Assembly: GCA_030063045.1 (NCBI GenBank)
Contig: JAQSEB010000048.1
Span: 620,001 to 684,000 of the forward strand
Direction: 5' to 3'
Source: Pratylenchus scribneri
Taxonomy: Eukaryota; Nematoda; Chromadorea; Rhabditida; Pratylenchidae
Length of the DNA stretch: 64,000 nucleotides
Every line of letters starts with the position of its first letter. Position 1 is the first letter of the stretch. The translations under genes were made by a program, and so were the position numbers. This document shows, piece by piece, positions 2,279 through 61,310 of this stretch. The notes below the pieces were generated by a model. That model did no database searches. It was not told the DNA's origin and saw nothing but the letters and a program-made list of their open reading frames with translations.

Positions 2279-2470
2279 TCCTAGTTTTTTCTGATAAATT
2301 TTTTAAAATTTTTTCTAATCTATATTTCTTAATTTTTTAAATATAAAATTTTTTGTCTATTAAAATAATTTTTAAAGCTGCTTGATGTATGCAAGAATCA
2401 GTCGTGATTGAGTAATCCTATTTGAAAATGAGTACAAAAAAATTTTTTACCGGAATAAATTTTTTCCGGT

Positions 2471-4440: not shown

Positions 4441-4838
4441 TTCAAGGAGCCATGCATTTAGTTTATGTTAAATATGTCATAAAACCTTTTAAAGTCTAAG
4501 AATTAATTATTATATTTAAATGTTTTTAATATATAAATATATAATAATTTTATTCTTCGAATATCAAAAAATATGATATTTTTGCGGAATGGACAAATGA
4601 AGAATGAAAGAATTTGACAATAAGAAATATTGTATTGATGGATGGGAATGAAGTAATATTGTATGCCTGGGAGCAAAATCAAAAACATAGAATGTTAGAA
4701 TTTGGGCTTTCTAATAGCGTGAGCAGAAAAAATTCAGGAAATTGATGCGAAATAATAAATTAACCTTAAAAATTATTAAATTTACCCACAACGCAATTGT
4801 GGTCAAAAAATTTAGCCAAAGAAATGTTTGGGTTTAGC
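4441..4838. other. AT-rich spacer, no gene seen
   Basis: Plain AT-rich sequence between two satellites. I see no convincing exon, RNA gene or repeat here. Confidence 0.5.
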
Positions 4839-10200: not shown

Positions 10201-10414
10201 GGCAGAAAAATTAGGCAGAAAATTAGGCAGAAAACTAGGCAGAAAAATTAGGCAGAAAAATTAGGCAGAAAATTAGGCAGAAAATTAGGCAGAAAAATGA
10301 GGCAGAAAAATTAGGCAGAAAAATTAGGCAGAAAAATGAGGCAGAAAAATGAGGCAGAAAATTAGGCAGAAAAATAGGCAGAAAATTAGGCAGAAAATTA
10401 GGCAGAAAAATGAG
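7284..10414. repeat. 12-14-bp minisatellite (AGGCAGAAAAATT), 3.1 kb
   Basis: More than 200 tandem units of AGGCAGAAAAATT, AGGCAGAAAAATG, AGGCAGAAAATT, AGGCAGAAAACT and AGGCAGAAAAAT. The order of variants repeats over hundreds of bases: the stretch near 8,030-8,470 recurs near 9,290-9,740. This indicates amplification by multi-unit duplication as well as single-unit slippage. Confidence 0.97.
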
Positions 10415-10696
10415 GTTACGCCTGGCGAACTTAGAATAATTCCGCCTGGCGAATAATTCCGCCTGGCGAACTTAGAATAATTCCGCCTGGCGAACTTAGA
10501 ATAATTCCGCCTGGCGAACTTGGAATAATTCCGCCTGGCGAACTTAGAATAATTCCGCCTGACGAAACTTAGAATAATTCCGCCTGTTTTAATTCCGCCT
10601 GGCGAACTTAGAATAATTCCGCCTGTTTTAATTCCGCCTGGCGAACTTAGAATAATTCCGCCTGGCGAACTTAGAATAATTCCGCCTGGCGAACTT
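10415..10696. repeat. 24-bp satellite array, short
   Basis: About ten units of the TTCCGCCTGGCGAACTTAGAATAA family, joined directly to the preceding minisatellite at AATGAGGTTACGCCTGG. The 128-codon minus-strand frame here is repeat-derived. Confidence 0.92.
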
Positions 10697-20840: not shown

Positions 20841-21530
20841 GCAGAAAAATGAGGCAGAAAATTAGGCAGAAAAATGAGGCAGAAAATTAGGCAGAAAAAT
20901 GAGGCAGAAAAATGAGGCAGAAAAATGAGGCAGAAAAATGAGGCAGAAAATTAGGCAGAAAAATTAGGCAGAAAATTAGGCAGAAAAATGAGGCAGAAAA
21001 ATGAGGCAGAAAATTAGGCAGAAAAATGAGGCAGAAAATTAGGCAGAAAAATGAGGCAGAAAAATGAGGCAGAAAATTAGGCAGAAAAATGAGGCAGAAA
21101 ATTAGGCAGAAAATGAGGCAGAAAAATGAGGCAGAAAATTAGGCAGAAAATTAGGCAGAAAAATGAGGCAGAAAAATGAGGCAGAAAATTAGGCAGAAAA
21201 ATGAGGCAGAAAATTAGGCAGAAAATTAGGCAGAAAAATGAGGCAGAAAAATGAGGCAGAAAATTAGGCAGAAAAATGAGGCAGAAAATTAGGCAAAAAA
21301 ATGAAGCAGAAAATTAGGCAGAAAATTAGGCAGAAAATGAGGCAGAAAATTAGGCAGAAAATTAGGCAGAAAAATGAGGCAGAAAAATGAGGCAGAAAAT
21401 TAGGCAGAAAATTAGGCAGAAAAATGAGGCAGAAAAAATGGGGCAGAAAAAATGGGAAGTTCGCCAGGCGGAATTAAAACAGGCGGAATTATTCTAAGTT
21501 CGCCAGGCTGAATTTAAACAGGCGGAATTA
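20841..21530. repeat. 12-14-bp array then short 24-bp array
   Basis: AGGCAGAAAAATG-family units to about 21,455, then about three inverse-orientation 24-bp units leading into block copy 4. Confidence 0.95.
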
Positions 21531-23160
21531 TTTTAAAAGAATCTGGAAAGGATATTATATTGCCCAATTTTTTCCAAAATGAAAATTGAGAGGAAATTCA
21601 ATTTATTTTGTTATAATAAATTAATTCCTCATATTTTTTAAAATTATTTTTCCCACAATGTAAAATTTATTGTTCATCATCAATTCCGCCGATCTGCCAA
21701 TGCCATTCTTCCCTTCACATGGACGCCATTATAAGAACGACAAATCAGAATGGGGAATCCGCATTTTTGGCAGGGTTTGGCCAAAAAGATTTGAATGGAT
21801 TGAAGAAGAACATTGTTGAATTTAAAGTTTACTCTATTGAACATTAATAATGACAATGAATTGATGATGTCAATCCCACGAAAAGGGAGTTACATTTACA
21901 GTACTTCAATATTTCCCAAATAGAGGCATGAATAGAATGCGATAGGGAATAAATTCATCAACAAAAAGGCTGATTTTAGAATTTATCCCTTTCTAATCAT
22001 GATCAATTTTTATTTAATCACTAAAAAATATCTCAGGTGTTTGAAGAAGATAACCATTCAATGGAATATGCGCAGTCGATTGTTGTAATAAAAATTTGAA
22101 ATCATTTAATTCAACGTAGAAATCGAAGAAAATAGATGGCGAAAGGGAGGAGGAGGTGAAGGCGAATTCATCAGCGGAATTGGTTGAATTCAGAAGCTGA
22201 AAAACTTTCATGAAGACAATTAAAATAGGATTTGGAGAGGATGACATTGTTTAGAAATGGTCAAATTATTGAATAGGAAATGTAAATCTTTATAGAAAAC
22301 ACAATTTTATCAGACTGAAACACTAATATTTTTTAAAAAACACAAAATAATCGAAATGAAACAAACAAATTTTTCCAAGTTTACAATTAAAGATCAAAGC
22401 TAAATAAATAATTCATTGCATCATAAATCATTTAAAATACTCTTTATATGGATCACTAGAGTAAAATAAATTCCAATCTACTCTTAATAAAATTTAATTT
22501 TAAAATTTTTTCTAAATATTCTTATAATTCTTCCAAAAATATATGATTTTCTCAATCATAGATCCTTTAATCTATCCATTTTGTCTTTAGAAAAATAAAA
22601 AGTTTTATTTGATGGCCACCCTTTCCCTTCAAATTGCCCATAGGAACATTCAGTACAGTAATCGAAAATTCATTATCTGCTGCTTTTAAAAAATTATACA
22701 AAATTATTTAATTAATTTTTGAAGAAAATTGCACATAATTTCAACCGGAAACTTTTTGAGGACATATTTTACTTTTTTTTAGAATTGTATAAAATTGTAA
22801 AATTAAATTAGTCAATTTCAATTTTAATGGGTTTTTAATGTTTTTTGAGGCTAAAATAATTTTCTATCTTTCGAATAAATCGTAATTTCATTTTTGGAAA
22901 ATTCAAATTCGTCATTTCTAAGAAGAAAAAAAAAACATTTTTAAAAAGATTGGTTTAAACGCAAAATTGTAGAGGCTCTTTGGCATTTTTTTTTCCGACC
23001 GTTTAAAATAATTCTTCTTGGAAACCAATTTCGATAATTTTAGTAACAAATTTATGAAGAGAATGCCGCCTATCCAACGATGAAACTCACAAAAAAAACA
23101 ATTAATAAATAATACAAAAAAATTTATTTCTATTTATTTTATTGAATAATGATATTTCAT
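21531..23160. repeat. Higher-order repeat block, copy 4, with terminal inversion
   Basis: Almost identical to copy 1 (103-1,551), including the intact 77-codon minus-strand frame at 22,014-22,247. At about 22,986 the match breaks. The next roughly 165 bp, to about 23,154, are the reverse complement of copy 1 bases about 1,553-1,720. Beyond 23,160 the satellite domain ends and single-copy sequence begins. Confidence 0.9.
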
Positions 23161-33434: not shown

Positions 33435-36007
33435 ATGAATCCCCTTTTTGAAATCTTCCTCTTCTTCATCACTTCAATCACTTTGTTACTTCAACTTTAT
33501 TTGTTGTTTTGTGTTTTGTTAAAATCACCGAAGAAAATGCATCCATTCCGTTTTGCTCTTTGCTTATTTTTGGTGAATTTTAAATTAATCAATTTTGATT
33601 ACATTTCTATTTAAAATTATTTTTCCCAGTCATTTGATTTTGCATTTACTTTCACAATGGGTTTTATACTCGACCCGGATATACTTATCCCAAATGCAAA
33701 GGGCGCATTTGTGAATGGATTGGCAAAGTTGTTGGGAGAAGATGGAGGCAGAATAGGCGTAAGCAAATTAAAAAATGGAATATTAAAAATTAAATTTTAA
33801 TAAAAATAAAAATAAATTTTAATAAAAATAAAAATAAATTTTAATAAAAATAAAAATAAATTTTATTAAAAATAAATTTTAATAAAAATAAAATTTTAAT
33901 AAAAACGAAAATTAATTTTTGACAAAAAAAAATTTTAATAAAATAAAAATTAAATTAAAATAAAAATTAAAATTTGAAAAAAATATTATTTTAATTTGAA
34001 AATTTAAAAAATTTCAATTCTACATTATTGTTGCAGGACGGTATAAGAAATTTTTAAAAATTAAGCAATTTGGAAATTAAAAAATTTCAAAAATATTTTT
34101 GGTATTTTTGAATCCTTCTAACAGCAAAATTTCCCTGAAACCTTTAAGTTCACCATTGCAATTTTCTTTGGTGCTTGTATGATTGAAACGCAAGTTTACG
34201 GTTTGATGTTTCGCTACACTGCCGTTCAAGGCCGATGGCCCCATCTCCACAATCAATTTAATTTATGGAAGACACGGATTGGCCTCCTAATTTTTGGTGC
34301 CTTAATTGCCATTTCTTGCGGATTTGCAGCGTTTACATCGATAGCTGCGCCCTATGTAATAATTTCGAATTAAATATTTTTATAAAAAATTATTTTTGAA
34401 ATTTGCTTGATTAAAAAGATTGGGAATGAATTTTCATTATATTTAAATTTCTATGTTGCCAAAAAAAACATATTATTCTTATAGGATCTAATTCTAAGGT
34501 TGTCCAAAATTGGTTTTATACCGGGGTTTCTTATCCGGTTTTCAATTTTTAAATATTGTTTTCGGTTCATCCATTTTTAGTTTTGCCATTTGGATAATTT
34601 CATCGAATTTTGAAACCGAAACTAATTTTCGACAATTTTGGATCTTTTCATTTTTATTTATTTACCTCAATACTCAACAATTATAATAATTAATTAGTAG
34701 ATTTCCGCTAAATGCTTAATCTTATTTTGTTCTTAAAAAATATAGCATAAATCCTCTATTAGAAGACCACTCTCTAATAAAGTCCCCTTTGGTGGTTTAC
34801 TAAATTATATTAGCCTATGAGCCACAAATAAAGGATTACGGTAATTTAAAAATTTACTATTGAATTAATATTATTATAACAAAAAAAAAGTATATTAAAA
34901 ATTTCGAAAAATAAATCATAAAAATATTTTTATAAAAATTAGGAATATTCTTATTAGAAAATTAAAGCCCCAACTTACTTCTTTTAACAGGAAATTGAGG
35001 ATGTCCTCTTAAATAAGGGGCACCATTATAAAGAAATGATGGCTCTAATTCACCAAACCCATCCACCCCCTGTACTCCTTCTCTTCAACATTGACACGCC
35101 AAAGGGCAAAATCCTTCCAGCCCTTGTGTTTGGCGGCTTCACATTGTCACAATTGATGAGCTTCATCTTTTCGCTTCTAATTTATCGAACCCTGAGGGAA
35201 AATGCCTCCCGATTTTCTGCCCGAACATATCAATTGCATCGTCAATTGACTCTGCTCCTCATTTTTCAGGTGAGAATGGGAAAAAAATTTTAGAATATTA
35301 TTTAATGGTAAAAGACATTTGCCAAAAAAGATATTGAAAAAAAACGATAAAATTATTTCGGTTTATTATAGTCATGTTTTATCCGTGACCTTCGGATGCA
35401 CTTTTTGATAATGATTTTTGGCTTAGATATAACCAGTTTAAAATAATTTTTGAACCGAAACCTAAAACGGTTTAAGCGGTTTAATGCCCCTAATTTTTGA
35501 CCACACCATGATAAATTATATATCAATCAACATGTTTTGGTAAGATTTATTGATTTCATATAAGATTTTGGATTATAGTATGACAAATTATTTGACCGGT
35601 ATCGACATTTTCAATATTTTTTTTCGTGATTTTCAATGTTTTTTGCCAAATCAAATATTTCATAATTCCTAATTAATTCATTGCTGGTTGAAAAAATATT
35701 TAAAAATAATTGTTTACAGTTCTTTCTTCCATTCATTTTTGTGATGTTACCTGTCTGTTACGCTCTTTATGCCCTCATTTCCACAAAAGAAATCATTTCC
35801 GGAACTGAAATTGATAAGACTGCAGGGGACATTGGACTTCTTTTATTGAACATTTACACTCTGTGCAATTCTCTGCTTATTTTGCTGTTCATCACCCCAT
35901 ATAGAAATTACACTATGGACTTAATTCGATCAAAATTGTTGAGCCGATTTTTCAGGAATCGAGTTTCTTCATTGGAAGGAACGGCGGAAACCCAAAATAC
36001 GGATTGA
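33435..36007 (+). CDS. Seven-helix chemoreceptor, srh-like (gene A)
   Basis: Five exons, every intron phase 0: 33,435-33,572, 33,630-33,758, 34,149-34,355, 34,991-35,269 and 35,720-36,007, totalling 346 residues, the usual size for nematode serpentine receptors. Helix 1 is near residues 5-29 and is followed by LLKSPKKM. Late landmarks are SARTYQLHRQLTLLLIFQ before helix 6 and FITPYRNY after helix 7. These match the Srh/Str pattern of a Thr/Gln-rich third loop, a Q at the start of helix 6 and a PYR motif after helix 7. Such receptors detect small molecules in sensory cilia. All splice sites are canonical, so this copy looks functional. The Str versus Srh subfamily call rests on these motifs only. 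Confidence 0.8.
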
Positions 36008-36177
36008 ATTTAAATGATTTTTATTCACATTTCTATTGGATTTTTATCGTGATTGAATTAGTTAGATTTAATTTTAAAATATATTTAAATTTTCTTCCAT
36101 TTTGCTATTTTTATATTTATAGAACAATATCTCAATATCTTAATGCCAAAATACCAACATAAGGATTCATATTTTAG
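36008..36177. other. 3' flank of srh gene A
   Basis: AT-rich 3' flank with no clear feature apart from AT-rich candidate polyadenylation sequence. Confidence 0.3.
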
Positions 36178-37965: not shown

Positions 37966-40860
37966 ATGAACCCCCTTTTTGAAATCTCCCTCTTCTTCAT
38001 CACTTCAATCACTTTGTTACTTCAACTCTATTTGTTGTTTTGTGTTTTGTTAAAATCACCGAAGAAAATGCATCCATTTCGCTTTGCTCTTTGCTTATTT
38101 TTGGTGAATTTCTATTTTTTTTAATTTTATTAATCAATATAAAATCAATTTATTCCAGTCAATGGATTTTGCATTTACTTTCACAATGGGTTTTGTACTC
38201 GACCCTGATATGCTTGTCCCAAAGGCAAATGGCGCTTTTGTAAATGGATTGGCAAAATTGCTGGGCGAAGATGGAGGCAGAAAAGGCGTAAGCAAATTAA
38301 AAAATGGAATATTAAAAAAAATAAAATTCTAATAAAAATTAAATTTTAATAAAAAATTAAATTAAATAAAAAATAAATTTTAATAAAAATTAAAAAAATT
38401 AAATTTAAATAAAAATAAAAATTAAAATTTTATTAGTTATAAAAATTATTATTTTATTTGAAAATTTTCACAAAAATTCGACATTTTTCCTTTTAGATTG
38501 GCCAAAATTTTTTAAACAAAAATTAAACATCATAAAAATTAATAATTTTCAAAAAATTTTATAATCTTTTCGATTCCATCCATTAAAAAAATTCCCCCCA
38601 AAATCTCTTCAGTTCACAATTGCAATTTTCTTTGGCGCTTGTATGATTGAAACGCAAGTTTACGGTTTGATGTTTCGCTACACTGCGTTCAAGGCCGATG
38701 GCCCCATCTCCACAATCAATTCAATTTATGGAAGACACGGATTGGCCTCCTAATTTTTGGTGCCTCAATTGCCATTTCTTGCGGATTTGCTGCTTTTACT
38801 TCGATGGCTGCTCCCTATGTAAAACAAAATAATTATTTAATTAATATTTTTGTAAAAATTTATTTATTCAAAAATGGTTAAAATGAATTCTCATTTTTAT
38901 TTTTAACTTTGCTAAAAAATATTATTATTAGATTATTTTCATTTTTAATTTATTCCGAATAATCAGCGTTTAATTAGGAATGGTATTTAATTTGACGAAA
39001 AAAAACATTAAAAATATAGAAAAAGTAGTAAAGATGGCCAAAAATTTTAAATGTCAAAATTTCCCTCAAAATGTTTATACGTCTATTGGTAGTTGGTATA
39101 TAATTTGTTATGAAATAATAAAAAAAAATTAAAATAATAAACCGTTTAGACATCCTTTTATTTTTGGTTCACAAATTTTTAAACCTAAAAGCAAATCATT
39201 ATCAATCAAACCATACTGCGACACTTGCGGACCCGACACTTGCGGACGAAACGGTCTGGAGCCGAAAATGGTAAAGCTGGAGTGGCATTGTTTATAGCAT
39301 ATTATTAGGCATAAAATTAGCTACAAAATGACATCAAAAGCATTGGCCAATGTTGAATATTCACCGAATTATGGCCAAAAAACCGTTGATTTAATTAAAA
39401 TTGGGATTTTGTTGGTTTTTTGGCCATAATTCTATGAATATTCAACATTGGCCAAAACTTTTGATGTCATTTTGTAGCTAATTTTATGCCTAATAATAAC
39501 ATATGAACAATGCCACTCCAGCTTTACCACATTCGGCTCCAGACCATTTCGTTCGCAAGTGTCGGCCAACCTATCAAACGATGCATCTCGATGAAATCTA
39601 TCGTTTCAATATAAAGTTAGGGGATCTATGATATAATTATGAATCATTATAATCATTTTGCCATGTGTTTGCCATTTAAAATATTTGCCATTAATTAGTA
39701 TTAGTGTGATTCCCATTAAATGGTTATCTTATTTTTAAAATTGTATTATCCAGAAAATAAAACAAAGAGCATATAAAAATTAAAAATAAATAAAATAAAA
39801 AAATATATTGGAAATATTTTTTCAAAAATAAAAAAACCGATTCCTTTTTAAAGGAATTTGAGGATGTCCTCTCAAAAAGGCACTATAAGGACGAAATGTT
39901 GGCTTTGCTCCAACAGGCCCATCCACCCCTTCTTCTTTTCAACATTGACACGCCAAAGGGCAAAATCCTTCCAGCCTTTGTGTTTGGCGGCTTCACATTG
40001 TCACAATTGATGAGCCTCATTTTCTCACTTCTAATTTATCGAACCCTGAGGGAAAATGCCTCCAGATTTTCTGCCCGAACATATCAATTGCATCGTCAAT
40101 TGACCTTGCTCCTCATTTTTCAGGTGAAAAGATGGAAATAATAAAATTTTCGAATATTATTTATTTGTAAAAAAAATTAAAAATAAAAAAAAGCGAAAAA
40201 ATTATAAAGGTTTATAACTGTTCATGTTTAATTATAGACTCCAAAAAAATATGTTTAATCAATAAAATCTCGCGGAAAATGTTCATTCAATAATGATTTG
40301 TATTAGATTTAATCAATTTTAAATAAGTTTTGTACCAAAAACCGTAAAATGGTTTAAACGGTTTAATATGCTTAGTTTTTTCAAACCATGAAAAAATATT
40401 TACCTATCAATGAGTCTCTTGAATATATTTATCGATTAGATATAAAATTTTGGAAAATAGAGCAATCAATTGAAATGCAATAATCTTTTCTCAATTTTTT
40501 CCCCAATACTTTATCGTAATTTTCAATGTTTTTTCCCAAAATAAATACTAATTAATGCTGATCGAAAAAATATTTAATAATTTTTTCCAGTTTTTTCTTC
40601 CATTCATTTTTGTGATGTTACCTGTCAGTTATGCTCTTTCTGCCATTATTTTCACAAAACAAATTGTTAAGACTGCTGGAGAAATTGGACTTCTTTTATT
40701 GAACATTTACACTCTGTGCAATTCTCTACTTATTTTGCTGTTCATCACACCTTATCGAAATTACACTATGGACTTAATTCGATCAAAATTGTTGAGCCGA
40801 TTTTTCAGGAATCGAGTTTCTTCATTGGAAGGAACGGCGGAAACTCAAGATACGGATTGA
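37966..40860 (+). pseudogene. Seven-helix chemoreceptor, srh-like (gene B), frameshifted
   Basis: This is a tandem duplicate of gene A with the same five exons: 37,966-38,103, 38,159-38,287, 38,613-38,818, 39,854-40,123 and 40,591-40,860. Exon 3 is 206 bases against 207 in gene A because one C is missing in CACTGCGTTCAAGG near 38,686 (gene A: CACTGCCGTTCAAGG). The shift brings a TAA about 25 codons later, before helix 4. All other exons stay open and similar, with splice sites intact, so the loss looks recent, or it is a sequencing error. Intron 3 carries a foldback MITE. Confidence 0.75.
39233..39565. mobile_element. Long-hairpin MITE in srh gene B intron 3
   Basis: Nearly the whole 333 bp folds back on itself. 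The left end CCGACACTTGCGGACGAAAC pairs with the right end GTTCGCAAGTGTCGG, and inner landmarks (GGAGTGGCATTGTT, GACATCAAAAG, TTGGCCAATGTTGAATATTC) recur in complement around a roughly 50-bp loop. An extra 14-bp copy of the left tip (CGACACTTGCGGAC) lies just outside. No coding capacity. Gene A lacks it. Confidence 0.75.
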
Positions 40861-41816
40861 ATTTAAATGATTTTTAAAAGCAAATTTATTTATTTCTCAT
40901 TCACATTTCTGTTGGATTTTGTAGAGAATGATTTAATTTTCATATTTAAATGAATTTAAATTTTCCCCTTTTTTACTAAAAATATATGAGAGTATTTTTT
41001 ACATTTAAATTGGCGCAATCAAGCTTTTTTCCATTTCTTTTTTGGAACAAATTAGGAATATGGTTTTAATTTTTCGATTTACAAAATAAAATATTACAAA
41101 ATTGAAAATTTGATTTTAATTTAAATATTTAAGTTTTTAAAATATAATTTTAATTTTTTCAATTATTTGTACATTTGCAATTAATTAAGATAAATTTTTA
41201 ACAGCTATAAAAAAATAAAAGGAAAATTGTCATTAAAAAATATATTCGATATTTTCTGGATATGCTGCATTTACAAATAAATAACCAAATTCTATCGATT
41301 CCATTTCCTTATAATGGTAATTTTTCTAATTTTTAAGCTAATTATTCGATTTTGAGATCAGCAAAAATGACCGATATGGTAATGTAATTTTTATTTTTTC
41401 ATCAGCAGTCCAAAATAAACCAATATTCAATATAATAAAATAGAAAATTATAATCTTAACTGACATATGTAGAAGACAAAATAAAATGTTAATTGACAAA
41501 CAAAGAAAATAATTATGAAAACAAAATATATTATCATCATATATATATTTTCTTTAAAAAATGTTTGACTAATAAAAAAGATAAGTGAAAAACAAAATAT
41601 ACTATGAATTTTATATGTAAAAAATTATTTGACAAATAAAGAAATAATAATGAAAACAAAATATTCTGCTATTTTTTAAATAAAAATTATTTGACGAATA
41701 TCATTTTATATTTGTCAATGAGAATAAAATTTTATTATAAATAGTATCGCTGAATTTATTCCATTTTATATTCGCATCTTAAAATATTCATTCTAATAAA
41801 AAATTTAATAAGTGAA
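40861..41816. other. Intergenic, very AT-rich
   Basis: I see no gene. Several imperfect repeats of an ATTTGACAAATAAAGAAA-like motif occur between 41,490 and 41,730. Confidence 0.45.
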
Positions 41817-42455: not shown

Positions 42456-42960
42456 AATATGTGAAGAAAATGATGGTGTTAATAGAGATGAAATTTTTAC
42501 TTATATGATCAACACAAAATAATCGATAAATGTTTGATTTTGAATAGTAGCTTACAGTAATATGTTTTCTTGCGATAAACTCTTAATGTTCTTTTTATTT
42601 TACATTTAATTTATATATGGCCATTATGCATTAGATCACTTATTATTAAATGAGTTCTGTTCGTGTGTGTAAACATAATGCCAAAAAATTAAAAAATTTA
42701 AAAATTGGATAAAGTGTCATTTTTAATAAAAATTAAAAATTAAACAAAACTAATAAAAATGTTTGGGAAAATAAAATATTTGGTAAAAAAAAACAAAAAA
42801 TGTTTGGGGAAACAAAAAAATATTTAGATGAATAAAAAAATAACGAGAGAAAATCATAAAATTTTGGGAAAATAAAAATAGAAACTGTTTGAGAAACTAA
42901 AAAATTTGGGGAAAAAAATTGGAAAAACAAAATCTTTGAGAAAAGACAAAAATTAAATGT
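42456..42960. other. 3' flank and degenerate array edge
   Basis: AT-rich sequence that from about 42,750 contains eroded GTTTGGGAAA-ACAAAA units leading into the satellite. Confidence 0.5.
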
Positions 42961-44310
42961 TTGAGAATACAAAAACAAATGTTTGGATCAAAAAAACACA
43001 AATTCTTTGGCAAACAAAAACACAAAATGTTTGGCAAACAAAAACATAAAATGTTTGGCAAACAAAAAACAAAATGTTTGGCAAACATAACATCTTTGGC
43101 AAACAAAAACACAAAACAGAAACACAAAATGTTTTTAAGCAAACGAAAACACAAAATGTTTGCCAAACAAAAACATAAAATGTTTGGGAAACAAAAACAC
43201 AACATGTTTGGCAAACAAAAACACAACATGTTTGGCAAACAAAAACACAACATGTTTGGGAAACAAAAACACAACATGTTTAGGAAACAAAAACACAACA
43301 TGTTTGGCAAACAAAAACACAACATGTTTAGGAAACAAAAACACAACATGTTTGGCAAACAAAAACACAACATGTTTGGGAAACAAAAACACAACATGTT
43401 TGGGAAACAAAAACACAACATGTTTAGGAAACAAAAACACAACATGTTTGGCAAACAAAAACACAACATGTTTGGCAAACAAAAACACAACATGTTTAGG
43501 AAAGTAAAAACACAAAATGTTTGGCAAACAAAAACACAACATGTTTAGGAAAGTAAAAACGCAAAATGTTTGGCAAACAAAAACACAACATGTTTAGGAA
43601 ACAAAAACACAACATGTTTGGCAAACAAAAACACAACATGTTTGGCAAACAAAAACACAACATGTTTAGGAAAGTAAAAACACAAAATGTTTGGCAAACA
43701 AAAACACAACATGTTTAGGAAAGTAAAAACGCAAAATGTTTGGCAAACAAAAACACAACATGTTTAGGAAAGTAAAAACACAACATGTTTAGGAAAGTAA
43801 AAACGCAAAATGTTTGGCAAACAAAAACACAACATGTTTAGGAAAGTAAAAACGCAAAATGTTTGGCAAACAAAAACACAACATGTTTGGCAAACAAAAA
43901 CACAACATGTTTGGGAAACAAAAACACAACATGTTTAGGAAACAAAAACACAACATGTTTGGCAAACAAAAACACAACATGTTTGGCAAACAAAAACACA
44001 ACATGTTTAGGAAAGTAAAAACACAAAATGTTTGGCAAACAAAAACACAACATGTTTAGGAAAGTAAAAACGCAAAATGTTTGGCAAACAAAAACACAAC
44101 ATGTTTAGGAAACAAAAACACAACATGTTTAGGAAACAAAAACACAACATGTTTAGGAAACAAAAACACAACATGTTTGGCAAACAAAAACACAACATGT
44201 TTAGGAAACAAAACACAACATGTTTAGGAAACAAAAACACAACATGTTTGGCAAACAAAAACACAACATGTTTGGCAAACAAAAACACAACATGTTTAGG
44301 ACTTCGATAG
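42961..44310. repeat. 24-bp satellite (TTTGGCAAACAAAAACACAACATG)
   Basis: More than 50 units of 24 bp with variants GGCAAAC, GGGAAAC, AGGAAAC and AGGAAAGTAAAAACGC. The last forms a two- to several-unit higher-order pattern from about 43,500. Because 24 is divisible by 3, all frames stay open on both strands (for example the repeated KQKHNMFG), which explains the long frames here. They have no start context, signal or flanking exon that would support a gene. Confidence 0.95.
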
Positions 44311-44640: not shown

Positions 44641-45916
44641 CAGGGTGGCCGAAAAATCCGTTCCCACTTTTATTTTTATTTTATTGATTTTCATTCATTC
44701 GTGGGATTATTGAATTATAGTTCATTTTTTAGCCCAAACATTTTCCTATAATGGCTGATAAAAGAAATTCCGCTATTGCATTATTTAATTCGGGAATGGC
44801 GCCTTCAAAGATTGCAACCCAAGTTGGCCTCTCCAAAAGGGGTGTGAGCAAAATCATCAAAAAATTCCGGTAAAAAAAATTTCAAAGAAAAAGTCCAAAT
44901 AAATTGTATAGGGAATTTGGCACAATAGAGGACCTCAAAAGAAGCGGAAGACCCAAGTCAGTGAACACACCCAGAAACCGGAAAATCATCAAAATGCGAG
45001 TCAAGCGAAATTCAAGGATCTCAATGAGAAAAGTGGCCCGTGAAACCGGAATTGGAAGAACATCGGTTCGATGCATTGCAAAATCTGAACTTGGGATAAA
45101 GGCCTACAAGCTCCAAAAAGTTCAATTTCTGAATGATCAAAACAAAAGAATTAGAGTCCAAAGATGTCGACTCCTCCTTCAGCGGCACGCAGGTCCTGAG
45201 ATTCTGTTTTCGGATGAAAAAATCTTCACCATCGAGGTGGCGCATAATCATCAAAATGACAGAATATGGACAACAAAACCTCCTCTTTCTGATAAGATTG
45301 TTTCCCATTCCCAACATCCCCAACAATTAATGGTTTGGGCCGGAATTTGCTCATCGGGTAAGACTCCGCTGGTTTTTGTGGATCCGGGGGTCAAAATCAA
45401 CAAAAACTACTACCTTCAAGAAATTCTCCAGGGGGTTTTAGAACCTTGGGCCAGGACCCATTTCGGGAATAGGGAATGGATTTTTCAGCAAGACTCTGCC
45501 CCCGCCCATAAGGCCCGAGAAGTTCAGGAGTGGTGTCGGGACCATTTGCCTGGGTTCATTTCCACCGAAGAATGGCCTCCCTATTCCCCGGATCTGAACC
45601 CTATGGATTATTCTGTATGGTCCATTTTGGAGGCCAGGGCCTGTGCTAAACCACATAAAAATTTGGAGTCATTACGACAGTCCCTTCTTAGGGAATGGGC
45701 GAAAATTCCGGTCCAAGAGCTGCGTGCCATTTGCGAAAATTTCCCCAAACGTTTACGTCTATGTATCAAAGCCAAGGGTGGCCATTTTGAATCAATTTAA
45801 TTATTGTTATACCCCTTTTTTTTGTCCATCATTTGATTGTATTTTAATCCATTTATCTTTATTTGTAATAAAGTTATGATAAAAAACAAGTGGGAACGGA
45901 CTTTTCGGCCACCCTG
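44641..45916 (+). mobile_element. maT-clade (DD37D) mariner transposon, complete
   Basis: A 1,276-bp element. The 29-bp terminal inverted repeats (44,641-44,669 and 45,888-45,916; start CAGGGTGGCCGAAAA) differ at one base, and a TA target duplication is present (44,639-44,640 and 45,917-45,918). It encodes one uninterrupted spliced transposase in the plus direction. Near-perfect ends and an open frame suggest recent insertion and possible activity. Confidence 0.93.
44751..45800 (+). CDS. maT-family transposase (DD37D)
   Basis: Two exons, 44,751-44,869 and 44,912-45,800, around a 42-bp GT-AG intron (CG|GTAAAA to TATAG|G) give 335 residues, the normal length for Tc1/mariner transposases. The N-terminus carries a helix-turn-helix (IATQVGLSKRGVSKIIKKF) and then the GRPKS hook. 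Catalytic residues are the D of ILFSDEKIF, the D of FQQDSAPAHKA and the D of SPDLNPMDYSVW. The last two are separated by 37 residues, the DD37D signature of the maT clade, not DD34E of Tc1 or DD34D of mariner. No stop or frameshift was seen. The enzyme binds the terminal repeats and moves the element by cut-and-paste at TA sites. Confidence 0.9.
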
Positions 45917-46030: not shown

Positions 46031-47457
46031 ATATGGCCAATTCATTTGTTCACTTATAATTATAATATAAATCAAAATTACATGTTACTTTTAGTTAGTC
46101 GAAAGTGATAAAGTCACTCTATGTAGTGAACATCCTGTTCATTTCCCAATTTTTACTTCCTGTTATTTTATCGGTAAATTATTTAGTAAATCAAAAACAA
46201 TTGTAGTTGTCTCTTTTTCCCAGACTGATTGAAATAAGGAATTGCATAAATACTCATTGATATGATGATGAAAGTAAAACAAATAAAAATTGATAGCCTA
46301 TGCGGAGGAAAATATTTGTTAATAATATTTGGACCATTAATTTTTTACATTAAATACAAAATTGATTTAAATTTTGAAGGCGGGATAACCAAAATAAAAG
46401 TATTAGCTTTCATTATTCTCGGTTTTGGTCATGCCCAAGATCAGTCTATTTGGTGGCAATAATATTCGCTTTCTGATAATGAATAACGATAACGGAAAAA
46501 TTAGACTATCTGAGCACTGTAGTCTGCTATGCATACTTGTTAGAATCTTTTCTTCCTAAAGTATTTCGTTGGATCATCGCATTAAATTATTCCCAACACC
46601 AATTCCGCTTCTGCTTCATGCCATTCTCTATTAATTGAAATGCCGCCGGTATTTGAATTATCGATTTCATGATGTTATTCTTCATCCACTTCCATTCTGT
46701 GTTGCTCAATTATTTTTGAATGAAATATGTAAACAAAGTCAAAATTCACTCGCATTAAAAATTTATGTTAATAGCATTTTGAAATGTAAGCAAAAAAGAG
46801 TGAATTGCCGGCTAGTCGCGATAAGAAAATCAAGCATTAAATAAAAAATCGATTTGCGAAACTATTTGTTCTTTCAATATTATAAATAACAAATATTTTC
46901 ACATTCTTAATCATTGCTTTTTTATCTTATTTAATCACTAAAATTTTAATTTTTGAAGAAAATTTCTTTATTAAAATTCAGATGGTTCTACTTTTTAATT
47001 TTCGAATCCTTTCTGGGATACTAATTAGAATATTTCTTTTAACGCTAATCATCATTCTGAAAAATTGATTTAACGATTTAACCAAATTTTGATACGTTTC
47101 ATTTAATACGGAAATTTTCTTTGAGATTTCAGATAATATTATGAAAAAAGATAGCCATTTGCCATATATTTACTAGAGAAAAATATTTGAAGCTTATTTA
47201 GCAAACAATAAATTTATCCTTATAATTGACTTTCCCAAAAGATAGAAAATAAGAAGTCCCTTTATAATTTCTCTAGAAAAATTAGACCTAGCAATTAGCT
47301 TCCTAAATTTCCTTCTTAGTGAAAATCACCTAAAGCCAAATTGTTAATATTATTAGGCAAATAAACAGAACTGTATATTATAATTATGTAATATTCATAC
47401 AAATGCAAAAAGTAGAGCTAAAAAATTTTTTTGCGTATTTAATTAATCATTAAAAAT
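46031..47457. other. Intergenic with one duplicated segment
   Basis: AT-rich. Bases 46,198-46,318 are an eroded duplicate of about 49,680-49,805 (TTGATATGATGATGAAAGT compared with TTGATATGATAATAAAAAT and flanks). Short frames at 46,262 and 46,635 have no domain or signal and are not called. Confidence 0.45.
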
Positions 47458-49377
47458 ATGTTCTCATTTGATAATTTTTTAAATGCAGATTTCAGTACAA
47501 TGATATTTTTTGCGATAATTTTATTTGCTCAAATATTTCTGAGTGAAGAATCAAATTGGAACCTCCACCTCCATCCCCTCCTAACAACTGAATCTGCAGA
47601 ACAACAACAACAACGCAATGAAACATTGCAACGACAAAACCAAAAAAGCACTGTCTTTGCATCAAATCAACCCAATCGAACTCAAGAGAAACAAAAGCTC
47701 TTCACCGGAAAAGTAAAGTGCTCTGACGGAAGTTACTGCGAGGAGGGATATTTTTGCAGCCAAATTCACATTGGCAGGTGTATTAAAATTGGCAGAATTG
47801 AATGTTCAAATTTCGTCGGCAGTTGTCCACCGGATAATTATTGCGGAAAGAGAATATGTATCCCTATTGGCCATATGGAATGCCCAAATGGCATATATTG
47901 TCTATCTAAAAATTATTCATGTGGCAAATTACATCCTGAAACATGTTTCCCAGCTGGTTACACTGAATGCCCCAATTTCGTCGGAAGTTGTCCACCTGAT
48001 TATTATTGCGGAAAAAAAATATGTGTCCCTATTGGACATGAAGAATGTTTGAATGGCGGGCATTGTCCATCTAAATATTATTCTTGTAGCAAATTACATC
48101 CTGGGAAATGCTATCCAAATAGCGGAACTGAATGTTCAAATTTCGTCGGCATATGTCAAAATGGCTTTTATTGCGGAAAGATAGGATGCATCCCTATTGG
48201 GAGTGAGGAATGTTCGAATGGCACACATTGTGACCCAAACTATTTTTGCAGCAAATTACGTCCCGGAAAATGTATTAAAAATGGTAATATTGATTGCCCT
48301 AATCGCAGCTGTCCAAACGATCATTATTGTGGAAAGGACCAATGCATCCCTATTGGACATGAGGAATGCCCAGATGGAATGTATTGTAGATCTAAAAATT
48401 CTTCTTGTGGCAAATTACATCCTGAAAAGTGCTTTCCAAAGAGTAATACTGAATGCTCTAATTTTGCCGGTAGCTGTCCAGATGACAAATATTGTGGAAA
48501 GAAACAATGCATCCCTATTGGAAGTGTGGAATGTCCGGAAGGCAGTTATTGTGATGCAAACAAGTTTTGCGGAAAATTGCATCCCGGAATGTGTTATGCA
48601 CCTGGTACCATTGAATGCCCTAATTTCGATCAAGGAAGCTGTCAAAAAGACCAATATTGCGGAAAGAAACAATGCATCCCTATTGGGTATATGGAATGTC
48701 CGGACGGCAATTATTGTGAACGAAACTATTATTGTAGCAAATTTCATACCGGAAAATGTGTTCCAAATGGCGAAATTGAATGTTCAAATTTCGTCGGCAG
48801 TTGTCCACCAGACCATTATTGCGGAAAGAGAATATGTATCCCAATTGGCCATATGGAATGTAAGGATGGCATGTATTGTCCGTTTAAAAATTATTCATGT
48901 GGCAAATTACATCCAGAAAAATGTTTCCCAGCTGGTTACACAGAATGTCCAAATTTTAACGACCACAGTTGTCCACATGATCATTATTGCGGAAAAAAAC
49001 AATGCATTCCTAATGGGCATGTGGAATGTTCAACTGGCGGGCATTGTGATCCTAATTATTTTTGCGGCAAATTACATCCCGGTAAATGTGTTCCAATTGG
49101 TACCACTGAATGTCCAAATTTCGACAACAACACCTGTTATAGTGACCAATATTGTGGAAAGAAAAGATGCATCCCTATTGGTGGTATGGAATGTCCGGAT
49201 GGCAATTATTGTGATCCAAACCATTTTTGTGGCAAATTACGTCCTGACAGATGTGTTCCAATTGGTAACACTGAATGTTCAAATTTTGTCGACAGCTGTC
49301 CACCTGACCATTATTGTGGAAAGAATAAATGCATTCTTATTGGGCATGTGCTAGTAATAATTATTTGGCCATCTTAG
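47458..49377 (+). CDS. Secreted protein of about twenty four-cysteine modules
   Basis: A single-exon frame of 639 codons. A hydrophobic stretch at residues 15-29 (MIFFAIILFAQIFLS) suggests a signal peptide, with Met15 as an alternative start. After a Q/N-rich linker (about 50-83), two roughly 28-residue modules alternate, about ten of each: type B (for example ECPDGNYCDPNHFCGKLHPG then C) and type A (ECPNF-SCPPDHYCGKKQCIPIG), each with four cysteines. The alternation implies five or more rounds of duplication of a two-module unit. The last type A module ends in ILIGHV and runs into LVIIIWPS and a stop where the next cysteine module should start, so the end looks truncated by a deletion or frameshift. 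I do not recognise a named family. It lies 517 bp upstream of the GH18-kinase gene on the same strand and could be a partner, a separate secreted protein or, less likely, part of that gene. Confidence 0.7.
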   Translation: MFSFDNFLNADFSTMIFFAIILFAQIFLSEESNWNLHLHPLLTTESAEQQQQRNETLQRQNQKSTVFASNQPNRTQEKQKLFTGKVKCSDGSYCEEGYFCSQIHIGRCIKIGRIECSNFVGSCPPDNYCGKRICIPIGHMECPNGIYCLSKNYSCGKLHPETCFPAGYTECPNFVGSCPPDYYCGKKICVPIGHEECLNGGHCPSKYYSCSKLHPGKCYPNSGTECSNFVGICQNGFYCGKIGCIPIGSEECSNGTHCDPNYFCSKLRPGKCIKNGNIDCPNRSCPNDHYCGKDQCIPIGHEECPDGMYCRSKNSSCGKLHPEKCFPKSNTECSNFAGSCPDDKYCGKKQCIPIGSVECPEGSYCDANKFCGKLHPGMCYAPGTIECPNFDQGSCQKDQYCGKKQCIPIGYMECPDGNYCERNYYCSKFHTGKCVPNGEIECSNFVGSCPPDHYCGKRICIPIGHMECKDGMYCPFKNYSCGKLHPEKCFPAGYTECPNFNDHSCPHDHYCGKKQCIPNGHVECSTGGHCDPNYFCGKLHPGKCVPIGTTECPNFDNNTCYSDQYCGKKRCIPIGGMECPDGNYCDPNHFCGKLRPDRCVPIGNTECSNFVDSCPPDHYCGKNKCILIGHVLVIIIWPS

Positions 49378-49894
49378 TAAGGGGCAATGCCAATATTTAC
49401 AAATATGTGGATCCAATCCATTGTAAATGTTGGCATTCGGCTTACTCAAGAATGGCATAGATATTGTTAAGACAAAATGAAGACTAAATTTATATATTCA
49501 TATAATTATCATATGAAAACTATTTTACAAATTAATTTCAGTAAGAAAATATTTTAATGACAAAAATTAATTTTTTGCTATAAATTTAAAAAAAATTTTT
49601 GAATAATTTTCGAGCATAATTTATTCAATTTCATCAGAAAAATATTTTCGCAAATTTCAATTTCTATTTATTAGGAAACAATTAAAAATTTAAAAGTTAT
49701 CTTTTTTTCCAAATTGACTGAAAAAAAATAGCGGAAATCTTAAATATTGATATGATAATAAAAATTATAGTTCAAATAAATAAAAATCGATAAAGGAAGA
49801 AAAAAAAATTTCGATATAACATTTCTTATTTAATTTTATGAAAATTTTTATTTTATTTTAATAAATTTAATTATTTTTGATATAATTTTTCAGA
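49378..49894. other. Spacer between cysteine-module gene and receptor kinase
   Basis: AT-rich and includes the duplicate of 46,198-46,318. It should hold the promoter or missing first exon of the receptor gene. No clear signal-peptide exon was found in it. Confidence 0.4.
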
Positions 49895-52800
49895 ATGCCT
49901 GCAAATTGTGCCAAAAGATTAATCGGTTATTTTATGGGATCTGGAAGTGGCAAGGAACAAAAGAATTTGACGAAAATTCGGGTAAATAAAAATTATTTAA
50001 TATGATACATATAATTATGAACGGTTAGATGAAGTGAAATATATGGAATTTATTTTATTAAAAAAAATTTTTTTCATAAGAATAATTAAGAATCTTTAAA
50101 ACGAATTTTGTTTCAATTTTGCAAAAAAAAATTTATTCCAATTTTTGTAAGCTCAATGCCAACATTTATCATGGATCGTTTCTTGCATATTTATAAATAT
50201 TAGCACAGCTCCTTTCCAATTGTCAAATAATATATTTATATTAAAACAAATTACCATAGAAAAATATATTTTCTGAAAAGTTTAAAGATTAATTAATTCA
50301 AATTAGAAACCCTTATTCAAATAAATTATTATGTTTATTTAAATTTCAAAATAATAGAAATTTATTATATATTTAATTAATTATAATTTAATTTTAGGGC
50401 TCCACATTAACTCATCTAATTTATTTGCATTTAATTGTTAATTTATCAAATATGAATTTGTCTTTCGAATTTCCGGAACATTTTCGCCTAATTCAAGCAG
50501 AAGCATTAAAATATGGAAATTTAAAATTCATGGTTGGCCTCTGGTTTGTCTTTTTCAAATAATCTCATAAATTAATAAAATTTATATATAAATTAAATTT
50601 CAAATTAATAAATTTAATTAAATGACTTCAATTTAAAGGCATGAAAATTCCACAGAATTTGCCAAAATTATCAAAAATTCATCAAATAGGACAAAGTTCG
50701 TCGATAAAATTGCAACATTTATAGCAGATGAAAATTTGGATGGAATCGAAATTCAATGGGAATATGAAATAAAACAATTACCAAAACATCAAATTATGGT
50801 ATGCCCATAACATAAATTAGTCATTAATCCATTTCTGTTGTACTGAAGCAATTTATAAAATTTATTGCCAAAAAAATTAAAATTGCCTTATCCAATTTTC
50901 CCAATTTTCTTAATCATAATTATTACAATTTAATATTATCAAATTGTCTAATTAATATTTTTCGTATCAATTCGATCGATTTAAGGCCATATAATAAATT
51001 TATCCAAAATTTTCTAAATTTACTATTTTGCTAGGATAAATCAAGTGGGAAAATTAATTTTCCATACCAATAATATTATATTTAATAAAAAATAAAATTA
51101 ATAAAGTAAACATTTTTAGGAACACAAGCGAGCATACATTGATTTTCTACGCGAATTACGAATTCGTTTAAACAGTTTGCCTAGACCTCAAAATTTATCA
51201 ATTGTTCTGGCCCAAAATCCTAACACATTTTTCTTTCCAAATCAATCAGAATTGGCTGAATTATCTGAAATTGTTGACTTTTTCAACGTCAAAACCTACG
51301 ATTATTATGGATTTTTGGATGAATTTATCGGCCCACCAAGTCCACTTTTTCAGAGTTTTAACTCATCTGCTGGAGAAAATGATGAAGTCAATTATATAGA
51401 CTGGACAATGAATTATTATGGATGCCGAATAAACAAATTTAAGGTATAAAATTAATGTTCTTATATGATTTCTTAAATCGCACATTTCTGAAAGTCATCG
51501 GATTTAGTTAGGCAATTTTGAATTATTTAATTCATAAATGAACTTAATAAGTAAGAAAACAGAAAATAGTTCATTGGGTTTTGGCATTCTCAACGATGAT
51601 TTTAAATTTAAAAAATTTATTAAAGCGGAGATAAACTATTAAATTCAAACAGATTTTTAAATTTAACAATGATTCAATTTTATTATCACAAACATATCAT
51701 TCTGAAATTGAAATTTCATAAATAAAATCAAAAAGAAAAAATAATCTATTTCTCCCAAAAAGTTTTTTCAATTCAAGATTTCCAAATTTTAAGTTAAATA
51801 TGGGCCTCTCGCTACTTGGCTATTTTTGGGAATCTTTCGATTTGCCATCATTGCCAATTTATAATTCAAGTCGAAATGAAAATTTTGGATTTTTGCGGAA
51901 AACAAAAGCGAATGGCCAAATATTACAATGGCGGCAAATTGAGAGCAAATTTAATCTAAACAATACAATTTTTGATGAAACAGCAATGGTCCCATATATT
52001 GAGCAAGATGGAATGTATTTAGGTTTTGAAAATGAACGGTCAATTCAGGCAAAGGTAAAAATAAATAAAAATTATTAAATGGCTGAAAATTTTTGAAAAT
52101 AAATTTAATAAAAATTTAAAATTTATTTTTCAAAATTTTTAAAATACATATGTCTATAAATATATCTGCTCGATTAAATTTATTTTAAGCTATCAAAATA
52201 TAAAAATCTTATATGATATTAGACTAAAAATAAAGTGGTTTTCTTAATTATGAATAATAAAAAATAATTAACAAATTAATTCTTAAATAGATTGATTATA
52301 TCTACGCATTTGGTATTGGTGGCCTCACAATTGATTCCATCAATTTTGACGATGACAATGAGAACATAATTAAAAATTTAATTGAACATATACACAATGA
52401 ATGGGGCAATGTAAATGAATATGAATGTCGAAATGGCAAAAAATTCCAGTAAAAAGCATTTTAAAATTTTAATAAAAATTATATTAAAAATTTTTATGTC
52501 CGGCAAAATTAAACCAAAAAATTGTGAAATACCACAACATCCAGAATGTCAAAAATTAAATGGAACATGTATGCTAAAGAATTTTTGCAATTCTGTTGGT
52601 ATGACCGATAAATGTGGATCTTCATTTGAAGATATTACGTAAATATTTTTCCAATTAAATTAAAAAAGATATATTTAAAAAAATGAGCTTTTTAAGTTTA
52701 CCTTCGTACTTTAAATTTTTTTGATATTTACTGTATTATTTCCACATTTTTAAGGGGCCAAAATTTTATTATTAAGTCCTTTAATTTTTTATGAAATTTT

Positions 52801-54994
52801 TTTACTTTGTTTAATTCCAAAAAGTATTCAAAAAAATTCGGCAACCCAAAATTAGAAATTAGAAAAAATTTTTTTAATCATTTCATTTTTTTATTCAAAA
52901 ATTTAGATGCTGCAAAATTATTGATCTTCCACAACTATACACTTCGTCGTTACCTTATTTTCATCCATCCATCCAATTTTCAATAATATTTGGACCAATG
53001 CTAATTATTATTTGTTTAATAATTTTTTTTATTATTCATAGAATAGTAAGCACTAATTTTTATATTTTTTAAATTTTAATTTAAGCGCTCTAAAAACAAA
53101 AAAGAATATGTTTCTTGTTCTTCGACTTTTTTGACCAATTTAACCGATTGTGAATTAAATAAATTAGATCCAATGGATATTGAAATTTTGAATGATCATA
53201 AAATGAAAAGAGGTGAGAGATGAAAATTTAATTTTTTAAAAATATTTTTCTCTCAAAATATTTTAAACATAAGATAATTTAATTATTAAAATTTAAAAAA
53301 AAAAATAAATTCGAATTAAAATTAAATAAAAATCAATTAACAAAATTGTATACTTTTCCTTTTCAAGGTAATGAAGGCGATGTTTTTACGGGAATTTTGA
53401 AGGACCCAACATCGACTGATAGTGAAGAACAAAATGAAAAAGTTGCCATAAAAATTTGCCGAAAGGGAAATTATCAACCCGAAGATTTGGAGAATGAAAT
53501 TCGTCTTCTAGCAATGTGTTCCCATCCGAATATTATCGAATTTCGTGGCTATTATTGCGCCCAAATTGGCACTCAAATGGAAGTGCCGCATATTGTGACG
53601 GAATTCATGGACGGTGGCACATTGGAAGAAATGTGCCAACTTAATAAAGAGGTTGAATATTTAAAGAGTCAAAACTTCAAGACTAAAATGGGATGAGAAA
53701 AGGAGGAAAATAAATAAAGAAAAATGGAAAAAATTGGCAAATTTTTTGAAATTTCAAAAATTATTTTAATTAGGAAGTAATAATAAAGGAGAAAATATTA
53801 TGCAAAAATATGCTAAAAAAATTAAAAAATTTAATGAAAAATTTTTTTCTTTGCAAGTCAGGAAAAAATATGATTAAAAAAATAAAATTATAATAAAAAA
53901 TTGTGGAAAATGAATTTTATATTCATTTCCAAAACTGCAATTTCAGCCAATTCCCGTTAGAAAATTGCTTAATATTCTGGAACAAATCGCCCAAGGAATG
54001 GCTTATTTGGCAAAATTGAATCTTGTCCACCGCGATTTAAGTCCACAAAATTGCATGTTAGTTTAATTAATTTAAAAGAAAAATGTTCAATATTTTCCAG
54101 GTTGAATTCAAGTGGAGAAATTGTGAAAATAATTGATTTTGGCCTTTGTCGTCACATTGATGAATATCGAAATGATAAATGCCGTGTTTTCCAGCCCAGA
54201 TATACAGCCATGGAATGCTTGGATTCATCCAATAAGGCATGCAAAATTTTAATGAATTTTCATATTTAGAAAATAAAAATATTTTGAAAAAATTAAAAAT
54301 TGCTTTATTGAAATAGCGAATATTATTTAGAATAGATAGTAGATTAAATTAAAATTATAAAAGATAATTTCTTTCATTTTTTATTCAAATTATTAAAAAA
54401 ATATTGATCGATCAAATAATTAAAAGTATTATAAATTGATTAAAAAAAATTTAATTACAAACTTGATCAAATTAAATATAATTAAATTTAATTTTAAAAG
54501 TTCTCGGAAAAGACGGATATTTGGTCATTTGGTGTGCTAAGCTGGCGATTGGCAACCAACAAAATTCCCTATAGCTGGCTTCAAAAAATGGATGCAGAGG
54601 CACTTCGCATTGAATTGCAAAGATTTTTGGCTGCGGGAAATAGGCTAAATTGCATCGGGCAAAGAGGCCGTCGACAACTTTGTTCACCGGAAATTTAGTA
54701 AATTTTAAATAAAAAAATATTTACAATATTGAACCAAAAAATGAAAAATTAGACCGAAATTCAGAAATATAGGTTTTTGCCATAATTTTTTTTATTAAAT
54801 TTAATAAAAAAAAATTCGAATTTAAAAATTTGGTTATTTAATTTTTTATCAACAGCAATTCTCTGATTGCTCCATGTTGGCATGTAAATCCACAAAATCG
54901 GCCAAATTTTATTCAAATGATTGAAGCGATAAAACAAATTTCCTGTGAACGGCTGCCAACTATGGAATATTTAGAGAGAGAAGAAGTTGTGTAA
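49895..54994 (+). CDS. Receptor kinase with chitinase-like (GH18) ectodomain
   Basis: Fourteen exons in one frame, 803 residues: 49,895-49,981; 50,398-50,543; 50,639-50,798; 51,120-51,443; 51,794-52,054; 52,291-52,410; 52,457-52,638; 52,907-53,045; 53,086-53,212; 53,368-53,651; 53,947-54,056; 54,101-54,236; 54,501-54,697; 54,856-54,994. Residues 8-366 are GH18-like: RLIGYFMG strand, LTHLIYLH, FMVGLW, then D112-G-I-E115-I-Q117-W-E119 at the catalytic site (family rule DxxDxDxE), FFNVKTYDYYG and LNMGLSLLGYFW. A six-cysteine stalk follows, then a membrane helix (about 451-470). The kinase has G516-N-E-G loop, K544 in VAIK, E559, HRDLSPQN (D640), DFG (D659-661), TDIWSFGVLSW and NPQNRPNF. The motifs suit a tyrosine-kinase-like enzyme with all key residues. 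The stop is at 54,994. Weak points: no signal peptide after the chosen ATG, which sits one base after a CAG acceptor, so a first exon is probably missing; the 52,411-52,456 intron has a poor acceptor; the intron after 54,236 uses a GC donor. Confidence 0.82.
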
Positions 54995-61083: not shown

Positions 61084-61310
61084 TCACAAAACTTCTTCTC
61101 TCTCTAAATATTCCATTGTCGGCAATCGGTCAGAGGAAATTTGTTTGATTGCTTCGATCATTTGCACAAAATTGGGCCGAATTTGTGCATTTGCATGCCA
61201 ACATGGAGCAATCAGAGAATTGTTGAATTTAAATTTTTTTAAATTCGAATTTTATTTTTTATTAAATTTAATAAAAATTATGGCTAAAACCTATATTTTC
61301 CATAAAATGG
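61084..61310 (-). pseudogene. Inverted copy of receptor kinase last exon
   Basis: The minus-strand segment 61,222-61,084 repeats the last exon of the receptor kinase (54,856-54,994): NSLIAPCWHANAQIRPNFV through MEYLEREEV and a stop. The preceding intron half is copied too (61,310-61,223 matches about 54,765-54,855). The splice acceptor CAACAG has become TTCAA, so the exon could not be spliced. Replacement-type differences (CE to SD, NPQN to NAQI) show it is not an assembly duplicate. No other kinase exons lie nearby. Confidence 0.8.

Follow-up and report, generated by a model that had tools for sequence, protein, structure and literature searches.

A predicted chitinase-like receptor kinase gene of the nematode Pratylenchus scribneri and a relative in Heterodera trifolii

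The window analysed here is the whole stretch of 64,000 nucleotides (nt) taken from contig JAQSEB010000048.1 of the nematode Pratylenchus scribneri (assembly GCA_030063045.1, positions 620,001 to 684,000). Between positions 49895 and 54994 (+) of this window lie 14 exons that can be joined into a frame of 782 amino acids, running from an ATG at 49895 to a TAA at 54992-54994 with no internal stop (Table 1). In the joined frame, a GH18 (chitinase-fold) domain, a cysteine stalk, a single membrane helix and a kinase domain follow one another. This arrangement had been proposed in a first-pass annotation made from the sequence alone, and both the frame and the domain matches confirm that it is present. 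In the profile search which that annotation had recommended, Pfam GH18 (PF00704) matched residues 8-343 (E = 1.3e-46, 160 bits) and PK_Tyr_Ser-Thr matched residues 489-761 (E = 4.8e-55), both far above chance. Searching the window protein with NCBIfam profiles returned nothing beyond these Pfam matches. The membrane helix, at approximately residues 431-449 with a mean hydropathy of 3.06, is the one strong helix in the protein. The joined exons have a GC content of 0.34, compared to 0.12-0.22 in the introns. Twelve of the 13 introns fit in phase: 11 are of the GT-AG type and one, after exon 12, is a GC-AG intron whose donor at 54237 is required by the kinase frame. The resulting junction of exons 12 and 13 reads NKFSEKTD and is aligned with CKFSEKTD in the kinase of P0077, a predicted protein of Heterodera trifolii.

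Alignment of the window kinase to 9p9u (EGFR) and 7t6f (a tyrosine-protein kinase) showed that the catalytic residues are kept, namely VAIK, the helix C glutamate in ENEI, HRDLSPQN, DFG and AME. By reading, the glycine loop KRGNEGDV is partly kept. The Pfam scores were 187 bits for PK_Tyr_Ser-Thr and 143.6 for Pkinase, and the best 60 of 2635 solved-structure matches are all named tyrosine kinases or EGFR. Tyrosine kinases usually carry the signature LAARN or LRAAN in the catalytic loop. From this signature the window kinase departs with HRDLSPQN; the sequence in P0077 is HRDLATRN. Judged from its sequence, the window kinase is probably active.

The DxxDxDxE motif of GH18 enzymes is not intact in the window, where it reads DGIEIQWE, so that two motif aspartates are replaced (by E and Q). 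The full D..D.D.E motif was kept in all five of the other GH18 proteins retrieved. At the end of the barrel, the tryptophan found in 8hw6 (IMIWSID) is aligned to a D. An acidic residue at the position of the catalytic glutamate and the YDYYG segment are both kept. The closest solved structure is 8hw6 (124 bits), and 6ldu is distant (51.9 bits). Full chitinase activity of this domain has likely been lost.

The best evidence that the fusion of GH18 and kinase is real is P0077, the H. trifolii hypothetical protein niasHT_026164 (802 residues; 4 sequences in its cluster). The genus Heterodera belongs to the nematode family Heteroderidae. In P0077, a GH18 domain at 34-383 (E = 2.4e-79) is followed by a kinase domain at 510-778 (E = 2.9e-64), and its strongest hydrophobic stretches are a signal-peptide-like N-terminus and one helix between the domains. 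The first-pass annotation had suggested looking among nematode proteins for both domains in this order, and P0077 was found by a search with the kinase region in whole-protein context, in which one of the 120 best of 3731 matches carried both domains. When 78 proteins were compared (P0070-P0147 of the 120 best matches), P0077 was the top match of the window kinase by best single domain, with 129.9 bits against 115.9 for the next. The two kinases are 34% identical, and they pair in three trees, the first made with 39 of the 78 kinase rows (support 98/94), the second with all 78 (99/92) and the third with 61 (SH-aLRT, the Shimodaira-Hasegawa-like approximate likelihood-ratio test, 92). Plant kinases were represented in the trees by the STY17 type, not by plant receptor kinases, and the pair groups on the side of these plant kinases with weak support (60/69). 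Neither KIN-16 nor OLD-1 appears by name in the matches listed for the protein searches, and none of the kinases in the tree set was recognised as a KIN-16 member. In the juxtamembrane segment, the similarity of the two proteins (LDP..I.I) is not significant alone (BLAST E = 0.22).

The GH18 domains of the two proteins were also compared. BLAST aligned them over 301 columns with 25% identity (E = 2e-15). In P0077 the motif reads DGIDVDWD, with the glutamate changed to D. Its closest solved structure is 6ldu (350 bits), a probable endochitinase, and 8hw6 is absent from its best 60 of 141 matches. The two GH18 domains thus look like members of different subfamilies. Since they are not each other's nearest, the shared build may not be a single inherited fusion; it may have come about by one fusion with a fast-evolving or swapped ectodomain, or by two fusions.

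The topology of the window protein was assessed by its N-glycosylation sequons. Residues 1-425 contain 12 sequons, where 4.3 are expected by shuffling (P = 0.0004), and residues 455-782 contain 2, where 2.1 are expected. Enrichment only N-terminal to the helix speaks against a cytosolic ectodomain. From this enrichment and the signal-peptide-like start of P0077, we infer that the ectodomain is extracellular.

Several observations weigh against a single gene of this kind, and they concern P0077, the join of exons 6 and 7, and the 5′ end. The homology searches with the whole protein and with the ectodomain gave, among the matches listed, none with both domains. By whole-sequence score, seven proteins without GH18 outrank P0077 in the kinase-region search, and in the ranking made from P0077 itself, which leaves P0077 uncounted, the window comes tenth (134.9 vs 153.9 bits). 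Both kinases are long-branched, as the tree program warned, and the deeper position of the pair, with a nematode kinase, plants and an alga as neighbours, is weak (60/69). The two GH18 domains reach only 50-52 bits against each other, compared to the 124 bits (window) and 350 bits (P0077) of the best solved-structure matches. P0077, moreover, is known only from gene prediction, in which two genes could have been merged. Its sequons are few, with just 2 up to residue 440 and none beyond residue 470.

At the join of exons 6 and 7, the earlier claim that every splice phase agrees did not hold. Read in the GH18 frame, exon 6 meets a TAA at 52450-52452, whereas the stalk is encoded in a different frame; the joins that keep the frame are weak or non-canonical. 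All joins of GT or GC donors at 52292-52459 to AG acceptors below 52600 were enumerated, with the end of exon 7 fixed, and nine were found to be in frame. Five of these, with donors 52306 (twice), 52313, 52319 and 52322, cut the Pfam GH18 match. The four that spare it are GC 52406-52544, GT 52411-52456, GC 52436-52544 and GT 52411-52579, the last of which removes part of the stalk. With a splice-site weight matrix made from the gene's other 12 introns, which is small and favours a GC site because it includes one GC donor, donors 52436 and 52411 scored 5.9 and 5.2 (own donors, leave-one-out, 1.8 to 7.7) and acceptors 52544 and 52456 scored 1.9 and 2.2 (own acceptors 1.1 to 8.1). Donor 52406 (-0.7) and acceptor 52579 (-1.6) scored lower than any site in those 12 introns, and two joins are therefore left: GC-AG 52436-52544 and a 46-nt GT-AG intron, 52411-52456. 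A length of 46 nt is possible, as the same gene has introns of only 40 and 44 nt. Codon scores, which are partly circular here because their table was derived from all 14 exons of this gene, 6 and 7 among them, indicated coding in the GH18 frame to approximately 52447 and in the stalk frame from approximately 52500, with non-coding sequence at 52448-52495 (GC 0.06) in between. These boundaries match neither of the two joins exactly.

At the 5′ end, no convincing signal-peptide exon joining exon 1 was found in the upstream sequence, searched from 45800. The ATG of exon 1 lies one base past a good acceptor (TTTTTCAG, weight-matrix score 7.3), and exon 1 may be preceded by a trans-splice (spliced-leader) site or by a further upstream exon. 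From 45800 on, 270 in-frame joins of upstream ATGs to exon 1 exist; among the top joins listed, 4 start after 49378, none of them hydrophobic enough. Eighteen candidate upstream exons have a hydrophobic start and a GT donor, and most of them read a cysteine-rich open reading frame at 47455-49377 out of frame. One candidate begins at 46262-46268, and another is the hydrophobic N-terminus of the cysteine-rich frame itself (47500-47717), skipping its repeats; both are possible but unconvincing candidates.

This cysteine-rich open reading frame (47455-49377, +) is a single exon of approximately 640 amino acids with a hydrophobic N-terminus, located directly upstream of the GH18 exons. By reading, it consists of many cysteine-rich repeat modules of the type ECxNFVGSCPPDxYCGKxxC, the last of which degenerates before the stop. 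A Pfam search of it gave no match. As the N-terminus of the receptor protein it was rejected by reading, because its frame ends with TAG and joining a good donor at 49377 to the acceptor at 49893 makes a TAA.

Weighing these data, we consider it likely that the 14 exons form one gene, which would encode a single-pass receptor kinase whose degenerate GH18 ectodomain binds a glycan rather than cutting it. In view of the exon 6/7 join and the 5′ end, the one-gene reading is probable, not proven; the fused architecture proposed earlier is supported by the window frame and by P0077, which share the domain order. The gene probably is a true receptor gene, from a nematode family that has not been described so far, and it is not unique to the source genome.

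The same exons could be divided between two adjacent genes, a chitinase-like gene that ends with the TAA at 52450 and, just downstream, a receptor kinase with a very short ectodomain, similar to the chil and KIN-16 neighbours in C. elegans. The in-frame stop directly after the end of GH18 and the lack of a clean GT-AG join would suit this arrangement. It also has a precedent, as several KIN-16 kinases lie inside chil clusters, where PMC10523662 places old-1, kin-15, kin-16, R09D1.12, old-2 and R09D1.13. Nevertheless, we regard two genes as unlikely. A separate kinase would have no signal-peptide-like start, since the stretch before the stalk reads as hydrophobic residues interrupted by lysines; starts at 52415 and 52496 were tried and rejected by reading for want of a credible signal sequence. 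Sequence before the stalk is intron-like in composition (52448-52495), and the gap between the genes would be only about 40-100 bases. Additionally, P0077 carries both parts in one predicted protein, with its strongest hydrophobic stretches at the N-terminus and the helix.

It is also rather improbable that the fused family is real and that this copy is decayed or mis-assembled, having lost its signal-peptide exon and the frame at exons 6 and 7. Such a loss would be in line with the missing 5′ exon and the frame problem, as well as with a duplicated tail fragment nearby and the repeat-rich, transposon-bearing surroundings. On the other hand, the other exons are open and the main kinase residues are kept. 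Furthermore, a partial duplicate of the last exon and its adjoining intron lies at 61086-61298 (-), with 84% amino acid identity over 45 residues, and the ratio of non-synonymous to synonymous substitution rates (dN/dS) between this duplicate and exon 14 is 0.21 (changes: 8.5 synonymous, 7.5 non-synonymous; Fisher P = 0.007). This ratio indicates purifying selection on the protein tail since the duplication, in at least one of the two copies. As a variant of the one-gene reading, with which its probability overlaps, a working chitinase tethered to the kinase seems very unlikely, for although DGIEIQWE keeps an acidic residue at the glutamate position and YDYYG is present, two of the motif aspartates and the barrel-end tryptophan are replaced, and P0077 has D for the glutamate itself.

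Table 1. Exons of the predicted receptor kinase gene and the duplicate of its last exon (positions in the window)
Feature	Position	Strand	Basis and remarks
Exon 1, GH18 start	49895..49981	+	ATG 49895; acceptor-like TTTTTCAG ends 49893; encodes no signal peptide
Exon 2, GH18	50398..50543	+	phase, Pfam
Exon 3, GH18 with degenerate catalytic motif DGIEIQWE	50639..50798	+	phase, Pfam, structure alignment
Exon 4, GH18	51120..51443	+	phase, Pfam
Exon 5, GH18	51794..52054	+	phase, Pfam
Exon 6, GH18 end	52291..52435	+	3′ end may be 52410, 52435 or 52448; in-frame TAA 52450-52452
Exon 7, cysteine stalk	52545..52638	+	5′ boundary uncertain
Exon 8, CCK stalk end and membrane helix	52907..53045	+	phase, hydropathy
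Exon 9, juxtamembrane segment and kinase start	53086..53212	+	phase, Pfam
Exon 10, kinase N-lobe (VAIK lysine, helix C glutamate)	53368..53651	+	phase, Pfam, structure alignment
Exon 11, kinase catalytic loop HRDLSPQN	53947..54056	+	phase, Pfam, structure alignment
Exon 12, DFG, activation-loop DEY, AME (APE-like)	54101..54236	+	GC donor follows
Exon 13, kinase C-lobe	54501..54697	+	phase, Pfam
Exon 14, kinase end, short tail, stop TAA	54856..54994	+	phase, Pfam; partial duplicate at 61086..61221 (-)
Last-exon duplicate fragment	61086..61221	-	plus adjoining intron to ~61298; acceptor AG not retained

Other features were noted in the window. An open frame at 44874-45800 (+) matches the DDE_3 endonuclease profile (E = 1.7e-10); by its look we take it to be a mariner/Tc1-like transposase. 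Exons matching nematode Srh chemoreceptors are found at 35666-36007 (+; E = 1.8e-07, above the Pfam cut-off) and at 39794-40141 (+; E = 1.1e-04, below the cut-off), and they sit in the segments 34881-36107 and 39760-40978, which are mutual copies at 75% identity. Direct repeats are extensive at approximately 1-22990 and at 42742-44301. Within the repeat arrays at 7281-10415, 2470-4441 and 42742-44301, the identity between shifts is approximately 80-93%, and the segment 26-1545 has a 98% copy at 21457-22989.

If the one-gene reading is correct, the ectodomain would bind chitin or another N-acetylglucosamine (GlcNAc)-type glycan or glycoprotein without cleaving it. Pairing of receptors driven by the ligand would then allow the kinases to phosphorylate each other, likely at the tyrosine of the activation-loop DEY. 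The degenerate catalytic motif would be in keeping with glycan sensing of this kind. Judging by C. elegans, the receptor may control a programme of surface defence or of the cuticle; there, the KIN-16 family members OLD-1 and FLOR-1 are required to induce the chitinase-like chil genes upon oomycete detection, according to PMC10523662. KIN16 is named as a nematode-specific tyrosine-kinase family in PMC8662651. GH18 and kinase in one chain would fit a direct link between chil-type and KIN-16-type functions, and a chitinase-like receptor kinase would help to explain why chil genes and KIN-16 kinases are clustered. More tentatively, and with some doubt, one could envisage that receptor kinases with a chitinase-fold ectodomain form a lineage in nematodes, and that two fusions or an ectodomain swap combined a single kinase/helix module with GH18 domains of different subfamilies. 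Such a lineage would be an animal parallel to the chitinase-like receptor kinases of plants and would unite in one gene what C. elegans has as chil/KIN-16 neighbours. One prediction from it would be that CHIL proteins serve directly as ligands for KIN-16 kinases or as their co-receptors. Little is known of how the body surface of animals detects the wall sugars of oomycetes, fungi or plants, and a receptor kinase with a chitinase-like sensor would be a direct candidate for glycan recognition in nematodes. The predicted relative P0077 belongs to a genus of plant-parasitic cyst nematodes.

The first-pass annotation knew of no animal counterpart. For descriptions this still applies, as none of an animal GH18 receptor kinase was found among the papers listed by searches of open-licence literature; as a predicted protein, the H. 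trifolii relative has the same domain order. Like the window protein, P0077 combines GH18, one helix and a tyrosine-kinase-type domain in this order, and it has a sister kinase and a degenerate GH18 motif. It differs by an endochitinase-type GH18 with the change of E to D, a shorter stalk, a signal-peptide-like N-terminus and few sequons. Tobacco CHRK1 is a plant receptor-like kinase in which a chitinase-like ectodomain, of the class V chitinase type, is carried on a membrane kinase of the serine/threonine type, whereas the window kinase is tyrosine-kinase-like. CHI3L1 and YM1, which are among the structure matches, share the GH18 fold. They have a degenerate catalytic motif and are secreted proteins without a kinase. 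The KIN-16 family and the chil genes of C. elegans resemble the window gene in that genes for receptor tyrosine kinases lie among chitinase-like genes, but there the two are separate genes, according to PMC10523662.

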